Positions 8,095-18,499 of a stretch of 34,996 nt of DNA are shown one piece after another. The position numbers and the translations under genes are program-made. The notes below the pieces were generated by a model. The model had not been told where the DNA came from. It made no database searches and saw only the letters and a list, made by a program, of their open reading frames with translations. The number at the start of each line of letters is the position of its first letter. Position 1 is the first letter of the stretch. The DNA is from Nitrospirota bacterium (GTDB taxonomy: Bacteria; Nitrospirota; 9FT-COMBO-42-15; HDB-SIOI813), in the NCBI GenBank assembly GCA_023248395.1, contig JAHFEQ010000014.1:1-34996 (forward strand), in the 5' to 3' direction.

Positions 8095-8106
8095 ATCTCC
8101 GGAAAT

Positions 8107-8188
8107 CACTCTCCCCTACCCCCTCCCATCAAGGGAGGGGGACTAAGAATAAAAATGCATTCAAGTTGAGGGTAAGGGGGATTTTTGT
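8107..8188. repeat. GC-rich palindromic dispersed repeat upstream of ppc
   Basis: ctctcccctaccccctcccatcaagggaggggg...gagggtaagggggattttt; related to the copy inside the ppc ORF. Confidence 0.7.
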
Positions 8189-8204: not shown

Positions 8205-11045
8205 ATGGCATTACCTTTAGACGACAGCCGCTTACAATCAGACATCCAGTATCTTAAGGATGCCCTTGATGAGGTGATACGGGAGCAGGAGGGGAATCAA
8301 TTATTCCAGTTAGTAGAGGAGTTCCGTACCGCCTGTAATAAGATAAAGGACCAGTATGACCCCTCCATCGAGGCGTTTCTCCTTCGCGAGGCAGAGCAGC
8401 TTGACATTTCCATATCCTCAAAGCTTATCCAGGCATTTGCCTTATATTTCTATCTGCTCAATACAGCGGAAGAAAACTTTGGGATGCAGCAGCGAAGGGA
8501 GGTGCAACGCCACGGTGGCCGTGTTAAAGGTTCCTTTGAGGATTGTCTTGCAAGGCTGCATGAAAACAGGATCGATAGAAAGACCCTCTTTGATCTCCTG
8601 AGCAGTCTCTCTATAGAGCCTGTCATGACGGCCCACCCTACGGAGGCAAAGAGACTGACCATCCTCAAGAAATACAGAAAGATCTATCTTACAATCTTCA
8701 AAAAAGAGAACCCCATCTGGACACCAGAGGAGAAGGCCCTGCTGCGGGAGGATATCATCAATGAGATACAGAAGCTCTGGCAGACAGGGGACATATTCCT
8801 CGAAAGGCCGACTGTAGAGGAAGAAGTTTCCAATGGGCTCTATTATTTTAAAGAGACCTTTTATTCTGTGATCCCCAAACTCTACCGTTCTCTCAGGCGG
8901 AGTATAGAGAAGTTCTATCCTGATCATGATATCCGGATACCTCCTCTCTTAAAATTCGGCTCATGGGTTGGAGGGGACAGAGACGGAAATCCCAATGTCA
9001 CCCCTGAAGTCACAAGATGGACACTCAAAACCCATAGGGATGCCATTCTCTCACTCTATATTCAGTCGGTCCAGGATCTGATAGGAAGTCTCAGCCATTC
9101 AACCACCAAGGTAAATGTCTCAGAGGAACTGCTCTCTTCTATTGAAAAGGATATAAAGAATATGCCGGACATCAGTCAGCAAGTCCTTGATAGAAACCCT
9201 TATGAACCCTATAGGCAGAAGCTGTCATTTATAAGGATACGGTTAGAATCGACGGGGAAAATAGAAAGGGTCTATGGCACTCCAGCGGAGTTGCTGGAGG
9301 ATCTGCATATCATACGAAGAAGCCTTGTCTCCAATAAGGGTGCGAGAACAACAGCCATAGAGATCGATGGCATGATCAAGAGGGTGGAGGTCTTTGGCTT
9401 CCACCTGGCCAAGCTGGATATAAGGGAGGAGTCAGATAAACATACCAGGGCCATTTGCGAGGTCTTTGACAGGCTCGGGATATACCCCGGTTTTCGGGAC
9501 ATATCTGAAGACGATAAGATCCGGATCCTTTCACAGGAAATACAAAATCTCCGGCCTTTGATTTATGAAGGGATGGAACTCACCAGTGAATCCGGAAATA
9601 CTATCGAGACATTCAAGGTTATAGGATGGGCGCGGGAAGAGGTAGCCCCGGAGGCCATAGGGAGTTATATCATCAGTATGACCCACAGGGTTAGCGATAT
9701 CCTGATGGTCCTCCTCCTCGCAAAGGAGGCAGGTCTTTACAGAGTTAGTAACCCACCCCTCACCCTTCCCTCTCCCATCCCCACCCTATCCCTCCCCCGT
9801 CAAGGGGGAGGGAAAAAGGGAGGGGGAGAGGGTTTCGGTGAGGGGGAACGTGTATCAGGGATTGATATCGTCCCGCTCTTTGAGACGATCGATGATTTAA
9901 GGCGTTCACGGGCAATCATCGATGGCCTTCTCTCCCTCCCTGTATATAAGAGGTATGTTGCTTACCGTGGGGGTGTCCAGGAGATCATGCTCGGCTATTC
10001 AGACAGCAGCAAGGATGGTGGGATACTTACTTCAAGCTGGGAGTTGTATAAGGCACAGAAGGGATTATGGGATGTGGCACAGAGACATGGCATACGCCTC
10101 AGATTATTCCACGGCAGGGGAGGGACCGTGGGTCGTGGAGGCGGTCCTACTCATAAGGCGATATTGGCCCAGCCCCCCGGGACAGTCCGGGGGAATATAA
10201 AGATCACAGAGCAGGGGGAGGTCATCTCATCCAAGTATGCCAACCAGGGCACTGCCTTACATAATCTGGAACTGATGGTGGCCGGGGTGATTGAGGCGAG
10301 CTCTCCGGCATACCATGAAGAGATAAAAACTCTCGATGAAAAATACACCTCTATCTTGGACGAGTTGTCAGAGATATCCTATCGACTGTACAGAGAATTG
10401 ATCGATGGTCCTGATTTCTATACCTACTTCTCATATGCCACCCCCATCGGTGAGATCGGCCTTGCAAAGATAGGGTCGAGGCCTGAGAAGAGAAGGGATA
10501 CGTGGAAGATAGAGGACTTGAGGGCAATACCCTGGATATTTAGCTGGACACAGAGCCGGAACATGCTCCCTGCGTGGTATCCCGCAGGCAAGACCTTCAA
10601 GAGGTTTATTGACGCAGACCCTGCGGCCAATATGGAAGTATTAAAGGAGATGTACCGCAGGTGGCCATTTTTCGAAAATCTGTTAGACAATATCCAGATG
10701 ACCATGGCAAAGGCGGATATGAATATCGCCCACTTATACTCCAGCCTTGTACCGGATAAAAAGACAGGAGAGAAGATCTTTGGGATGATAAAGACGGAGT
10801 TTACCTTGTCAAGGGAGATGATCCTTCTGATAACCGGTCAGGAGAAGTTACTCAATAATGATAAGGGATTGCAACGGTCTATTCAATTAAGGAACCCCTT
10901 CATGGATCCTATCAACTATATGCAGGTCAATCTCCTGAATCAGCTGCGGAAGGAGGGGCTCACAGAGCGGGAGCAAAGGGAACTTGCGGACGCCGTGCTC
11001 CTGACCATCAGCTGCATCGCCGCAGGGATGAGAAATACAGGGTAA
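8205..11045 (+). CDS. ppc: Phosphoenolpyruvate carboxylase
   Basis: VMTAHPTEAKR, GSWVGGDRDGNPNVT, VPLFETIDDL, GYSDSSKDGG, FHGRGGTVGRGGGP, QPPGT..IKITEQGEVI. ATG 8205 (MALPLDDSRL) preferred over 8085, because the intervening residues are encoded by the palindromic repeat. Confidence 0.96.
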   Translation: MALPLDDSRLQSDIQYLKDALDEVIREQEGNQLFQLVEEFRTACNKIKDQYDPSIEAFLLREAEQLDISISSKLIQAFALYFYLLNTAEENFGMQQRREVQRHGGRVKGSFEDCLARLHENRIDRKTLFDLLSSLSIEPVMTAHPTEAKRLTILKKYRKIYLTIFKKENPIWTPEEKALLREDIINEIQKLWQTGDIFLERPTVEEEVSNGLYYFKETFYSVIPKLYRSLRRSIEKFYPDHDIRIPPLLKFGSWVGGDRDGNPNVTPEVTRWTLKTHRDAILSLYIQSVQDLIGSLSHSTTKVNVSEELLSSIEKDIKNMPDISQQVLDRNPYEPYRQKLSFIRIRLESTGKIERVYGTPAELLEDLHIIRRSLVSNKGARTTAIEIDGMIKRVEVFGFHLAKLDIREESDKHTRAICEVFDRLGIYPGFRDISEDDKIRILSQEIQNLRPLIYEGMELTSESGNTIETFKVIGWAREEVAPEAIGSYIISMTHRVSDILMVLLLAKEAGLYRVSNPPLTLPSPIPTLSLPRQGGGKKGGGEGFGEGERVSGIDIVPLFETIDDLRRSRAIIDGLLSLPVYKRYVAYRGGVQEIMLGYSDSSKDGGILTSSWELYKAQKGLWDVAQRHGIRLRLFHGRGGTVGRGGGPTHKAILAQPPGTVRGNIKITEQGEVISSKYANQGTALHNLELMVAGVIEASSPAYHEEIKTLDEKYTSILDELSEISYRLYRELIDGPDFYTYFSYATPIGEIGLAKIGSRPEKRRDTWKIEDLRAIPWIFSWTQSRNMLPAWYPAGKTFKRFIDADPAANMEVLKEMYRRWPFFENLLDNIQMTMAKADMNIAHLYSSLVPDKKTGEKIFGMIKTEFTLSREMILLITGQEKLLNNDKGLQRSIQLRNPFMDPINYMQVNLLNQLRKEGLTEREQRELADAVLLTISCIAAGMRNTG
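9751..9847. repeat. GC-rich palindromic repeat in frame within ppc
   Basis: cccctcacccttccctctccc...tccctcccccgtcaagggggaggga...gggagggggagagggtttcggtgaggggg. Encodes PPLTLPSPIPTLSLPRQGGGKKGGGEGFGEGE between KEAGLYR and IDIVPLFET. Confidence 0.9.
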
Positions 11046-11050
11046 TCAGG

Positions 11051-11106
11051 AATGGGGTCAGGTCTTGAATTTTGATGTACATCAAAATTCAAGACCTGAC
11101 CCCATT
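11051..11106. repeat. 56-bp perfect spacerless palindrome
   Basis: aatggggtcaggtcttgaattttgatgt|acatcaaaattcaagacctgaccccatt; 28-nt arms are exact reverse complements; between convergent ppc and the SurA-like gene. Confidence 0.97.
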
Positions 11107-18354: not shown

Positions 18355-18499
18355 AAATTTGACGGCATCGTAAAAAGTCTCAATATGTCACCCTGAACGA
18401 AGTGAAGGGTCTGATGACCTATTGATAATATCAGATTCTTCGCTTCGCTCAGAATGACAAAACGGCCCGTTTTAGACTTTTTACGATGCCGTCAAATTT
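18355..18499. mobile_element. MITE-like element with 26-bp perfect terminal inverted repeats
   Basis: aaatttgacggcatcgtaaaaagtct (18355-18380) and agactttttacgatgccgtcaaattt (18474-18499) are exact reverse complements. The interior carries the TCAGATTCTTCGCTTCGCTCAGAATGACA repeat. Confidence 0.85.

Follow-up and report, generated by a model that had tools for sequence, protein, structure and literature searches.

The phosphoenolpyruvate carboxylase (PEPC) gene, ppc, of a Nitrospirota bacterium carries two nested palindromic repeats within its reading frame, and we found palindromic repeats at the same loop of the enzyme in related genera. The insert is very likely best explained by recurrent selfish insertion of several palindrome families, filtered by the tolerance of the protein. 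Several unrelated short, non-autonomous palindromic families would multiply in this Nitrospirae family and insert widely, genes included; insertions breaking conserved proteins would be removed, and those in frame, free of stops and placed in a loop or linker would survive. The two element families, their nesting, the frame, the site reuse, and the purifying selection on ppc were read directly from the sequences. The window, meaning the whole stretch of DNA analyzed (34,996 nt), corresponds to contig 112 of the source genome, G000, a 2.01-Mb draft assembled in 119 contigs.

Two nested palindromes in ppc

The ppc gene (8205..11045, + strand; ATG at 8205 and stop ending at 11045) encodes a PEPC of 946 aa; no second ppc match was found in G000. 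The first-pass annotation had reported a dispersed palindromic repeat inside it, and the palindromic sequence was present as quoted. A search of the genome with the insert returned 49 partial matches, which bore out its dispersed character; the idea of a single palindrome did not stand, as the insert consists of two nested elements, a palindrome A split by a palindrome B. The matches in G000 form two classes, covering insert positions of about 12–32 plus 78–105 (A) and about 32–88 (B). Element A, of ~48 nt, is made of CCCCTCACCCTTCCCTCTCC, a short loop, and GGGGAGAGGGTTAGGGTGAGGGG; element B is the 48-nt CCCCACCCTATCCCTCCCCCATCAAGGGGGAGGGAAAAAGGGAGGGGG.

The composite A[B] insert, PLTLPSPIPTLSLPRQGGGKKGGGEGFGEG, occupies 9756..9845 (+) and, as the annotation had proposed, is in frame: its 90 nt make up 30 codons, and the product matches the PF00311 (PEPcase) profile over the full length, positions 1–919 of 919. 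The left arm of A, CCCCTCACCCTTCCCTCTCCC (9756..9776, +), recurs in the uninterrupted A copies L068 and L072, and the right arm, GGGGAGAGGGTTTCGGTGAGGGG (9823..9845, +), has matches elsewhere in G000. Between them lies B, CCCCACCCTATCCCTCCCCCGTCAAGGGGGAGGGAAAAAGGGAGGGGG (9779..9826, +), whose final G run is common to A. Elsewhere in the genome, A copies are uninterrupted with a loop of 4–5 nt (e.g., L072 and L068) and B stands alone (e.g., L052–L055); the composite occurs once, and none of the other G000 matches spans both elements. The simplest reading is that A landed first and B then entered the loop of this pre-existing A, an order that we infer from the nesting.

In its usual form, the A arm would be read in ppc as GGT TAG GGT GAG and would end translation; the ppc copy reads GGT TTC GGT GAG, with both base differences within the TAG/TTC codon. 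This TTC codon (GGGTTAGGGTGAG, 9834..9836, +) stands where several other A copies have an in-frame TAG. Some other A copies in G000 likewise deviate at the codon, so that the ppc copy is plainly stop-free but the timing of the change is not dated. The surviving A arm lacks the usual TAG, and ppc would be read through. A related C/G-rich palindrome-like repeat, with no strand assigned, lies just 5' of the ppc start at 8105..8180, outside the protein.

The hairpin predicted for the ppc insert is very stable, at –74.5 kcal/mol against –53.3 ± 4.0 kcal/mol for dinucleotide shuffles (z –5.3), as would be expected if the palindrome were retained for a regulatory role in the ppc mRNA through pausing, folding, or attenuation. 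Such stability follows from the palindromic nature of the sequence, however, and the ppc site is free of any such hairpin in four relatives (G002, G006, G007, and G008). The hairpin sequence also varies between genera, and an Rfam search gave no match at the insert; we consider a regulatory role very unlikely. No paper came up when the literature was searched for the repeat peptides.

At the protein level, 42 residues separate LLAKEAGL from DIVPLFETIDD in the source PEPC, and the same interval spans 3–18 residues in repeat-free PEPCs of the same family; aligning relatives without repeats placed their short loop at the insert position. A structure predicted from the sequence by itself was of no use (pLDDT 35) and was replaced by an AlphaFold model based on 36 homologues, which retained the PEPC fold (pLDDT 86, pTM 0.88) and whose top PDB matches were all PEPCs, with a TM score of about 0.85. 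The insert maps between helix 496–508 and strand 554–559 of the model, and residues 516–550 form its sole long stretch with pLDDT below 50. As the insert precedes the barrel strand, it probably lies, judging from the order of the elements, on the face opposite the catalytic strand ends. In comparison with G003, ppc shows a dN of 0.058 and a dS of 0.60, and the dN/dS of about 0.10 indicates strong purifying selection on the gene. The intact modeled fold, the PDB matches, and the dN/dS together suggest that the enzyme is most likely functional. The insert would be translated as a Pro/Gly-rich disordered loop and would be nearly neutral, in keeping with the tolerated, probably disordered loop proposed in the first-pass annotation.

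The same loop in related genera

The loop of PEPC holds repeats in several genomes of the same family. G003, with a PEPC 87% identical to the source, has two C-type hairpins at the site, ATCCCCCTTAATCCCCCTTT...AAAGGGGG; in G001, the C-type repeat is a composite enclosing a CCCGTTGC...GCAACGGG palindrome; and G005 has an A-type palindrome. In G004, the left arm of A begins at the site and runs into an N gap. G002, G006, G007, and G008 show no repeat and a short loop, the one of G007, a sister species in the genus of G003, being of 8 residues, and the readable PEPCs from other families of the phylum have ordinary short loops. No homologue with a nonrepeat sequence of equal length was found; the long loops of G001, G003, and G005 are also repeats. 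The counts of half-sites differ strongly among the genomes, with 32, 511, and 2 A half-sites in G000, G005, and G003, and 86, 117, 8, and 3 C half-sites in G003, G001, G005, and G000, respectively. By these counts, the palindrome type at the PEPC loop tracks a repeat that is abundant in each genome, consistent with one tolerant loop just before the VPLFE strand that would be filled in each genus by the locally abundant family. The peptide SQGLTKGDEN, which belongs to another shared repeat, occurs both in an unrelated G000 open reading frame (ORF) and in the G001 PEPC insert (L003 and L037).

The pattern in all genera could go back to a single ancestral insertion into the PEPC loop that has since diverged or been replaced in part by recombination among repeats. 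The flank AACNCA followed by CCCCTCA is found at the same position in G000 and G004, and the flank AGTAA also in G003. For G000 and G004, which share the left flank SNPP / SNTPL, it is possible that the A in ppc traces back to one ancestral insertion. As an account of all genera, a single origin is rather improbable: the C-type arms of G003 and G001 differ from A, and C is common in these two genomes and almost lacking in G000; G007 has its 8-residue loop despite being a sister species in the genus of G003; and CarA and NagA repeat the pattern with other combinations of types.

We surveyed site reuse more widely: for other genes carrying an insert in one of the genomes, the equivalent position was inspected in the relatives. 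The CarA inserts lie between the two domains of the protein. G000 has an A-type half there and G002 a C-type; in G003, a C-type repeat encloses a GGGGACAGAATT palindrome; G005 shows multiple G/C palindromes, and G001 a different repeat. G011, a member of another family, has a C-type, and the site has no repeat in G004, G006, G010, G012, and G013. The linker in the G001 carA (L199) consists partly of direct CATTCCG units (FRIPHSAFR), next to a small hairpin. NagA has an A-type repeat in G000 and a C-type in G003, GltX several palindromes in G005 and a different short one in G001, and UvrD a B-type in both G000 and G001. In LigA, the repeat is found in G005 only and no reuse was seen among the relatives compared, leaving a site common to genomes in five of the six genes (PEPC, CarA, NagA, GltX, and UvrD).

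The repeats at the shared sites of PEPC, CarA, and NagA are clearly of different families. Independence is strongly supported where the families differ (PEPC of G000 and G003, CarA, and NagA) and weakly where they agree, namely in UvrD, whose B copies in G000 and G001 may stem from a single event, and in the ppc A elements of G000 and G004. With insertion assumed uniform, the probability of the observed site sharing is about 1e-5 for PEPC and about 1e-6 for CarA, values that assume independent events and reject only a uniform survival, as selection already predicts.

A further reading is that the loops are selected by a DNA target preference of the elements and not by protein tolerance. The elements do nest, in ppc of G000 and G001, in carA of G003, and in a ligA composite of G005, and because of the nesting in ppc and carA, existing palindromes may be favored targets or may simply be places already tolerated. 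Against such a preference, the sites are common to unrelated families, and repeat-free relatives vary in length exactly there, as tolerant loops would; we regard it as about as improbable as the single ancestral insertion. In another reading, which we hold to be unlikely, a few loops of each conserved enzyme would be shared safe harbors: an early palindrome would lengthen the loop and become a preferred landing site, different families would accumulate there by nesting, and some of the disordered Pro/Gly-rich loops so formed might have been taken into use.

The draft state of the assembly, in 119 contigs, and the N gap of G004 exactly at the ppc insert site leave room for a misassembly having joined repeat copies into ppc. 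The junctions, however, are in frame, the protein is conserved and full-length to either side of them, and the phenomenon recurs across genomes that were assembled independently and across several genes; a misassembly is extremely unlikely.

In-frame copies and mobilization

The search for other in-ORF copies returned many in G000 and G005, supporting the likeness to Rickettsia palindromic elements (RPEs) that had been drawn from the ppc case. In-frame copies inside single conserved domains in G000 affect UvrD/PcrA, NagA, CarA, HsdM (twice), AddB, PilM, and a P-type ATPase, and AddA also has one, adding up to about ten conserved genes in a census that was based on search matches and is non-exhaustive; the genomes used are mostly drafts. 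Among sampled stretches of G005, 14 of the 75 A places lie inside ORFs that extend 60 codons or more to each side, and the in-ORF copies of this genome include LigA, SMC, CheB, and GltX. On contig 102 of G000, three paralogous membrane TPR proteins (L064, L065, and L007) have palindromic inserts in roughly the same loop, from either duplication after insertion or repeated insertion.

Mobilization by a RAYT is not supported, because the Y1 (RAYT/IS200-type) transposase (PF01797) is absent from G000 and G005 (drafts 95 and 100% complete, respectively) and none of 13 Y1 loci in relatives has a copy of A, B, or C, an unrelated F motif occurring at one locus only. G005, the relative richest in copies, has its 511 A half-sites even without Y1, and no mobilizer of A, B, or C was identified among the Y1 genes and loci searched in G000, G005, and the relatives. 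The G000 copies, read by eye, have no GTAG or CGTC tag at the ends of A or B; terminal inverted repeats are present in the sense that the whole element is an inverted repeat.

Other repeats were seen in the window. A perfect 56-nt palindrome, AATGGGGTCAGGTCTTGAATTTTGATGT plus its complement, lies at 11051–11106, just 3' of the ppc stop. As its ends, GGGGTCAGGTCTTGAAT, also flank, in inverted orientation, the Y1 transposase gene of G006 (L133), it appears to be a minimal non-autonomous element related to a Y1 unit; the Y1 gene is absent from G000 despite this palindrome. A 44-nt dispersed repeat with the core TTCTTCGCTNCGCTCAGAATGAC is found at 71–114 and 18429–18472, the two copies being 86% identical, and the latter is enclosed by inverted arms at 18355–18383 and 18471–18499.

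Relation to known systems

In-frame palindromes were described in Rickettsia as RPEs (Ogata et al. 2000, 2002; reviewed in PMC10969869 and PMC2229807). Like them, the repeats studied here comprise several palindrome families found in frame within unrelated conserved genes as tolerated extra segments. RPEs are Rickettsial and ~100–150 nt long, whereas the present units are of 48 nt, GC-rich, and from Nitrospirae; host and unit length set the two apart, and nesting and the reuse of loops by several families are features of the present elements. Intragenic GTAG/CGTC REPs in several species are short stem-loops within ORFs, often of DNA repair genes, and different REPs are reported from about the same recB site in two Xanthomonas species (PMC3733652). 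The stem-loops here also occur in DNA repair genes (UvrD, AddAB, and ligase), but A and B have no GTAG/CGTC tag at their ends, G000 has no RAYT, and the site reuse extends over several genes in several genera and involves several repeat families. The MITEs known to form in-frame fusions, such as ERIC, YAPL, and Correia/NEMIS (PMC2229807), are likewise non-autonomous repeats translated as parts of proteins, as we infer for ours; they are larger elements, and for ours no parent transposon was identified and no target duplication could be made out, as the relatives with an empty site are too diverged at the junction. By analogy, the ppc case works like RPEs and intragenic REPs, and the phylum, the element families, the nesting, and the reuse of loops in multiple enzymes across genera are new as far as our literature searches reached.

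The results extend protein-coding palindromes from Rickettsiales and a few surveyed species to groundwater Nitrospirae. They also call for caution in annotation, as the LPSPxxGEG, PPLLKGG, and FRIPHSAFR peptides are repeats and not domains. In PEPC, CarA, and NagA, different repeat families occupy the same loops in different genera, at a scale previously only hinted at by recB, and through this reuse the genomes therefore amount to a naturally occurring insertion-tolerance screen for conserved enzymes and to a testing ground for how selfish repeats create protein segments.
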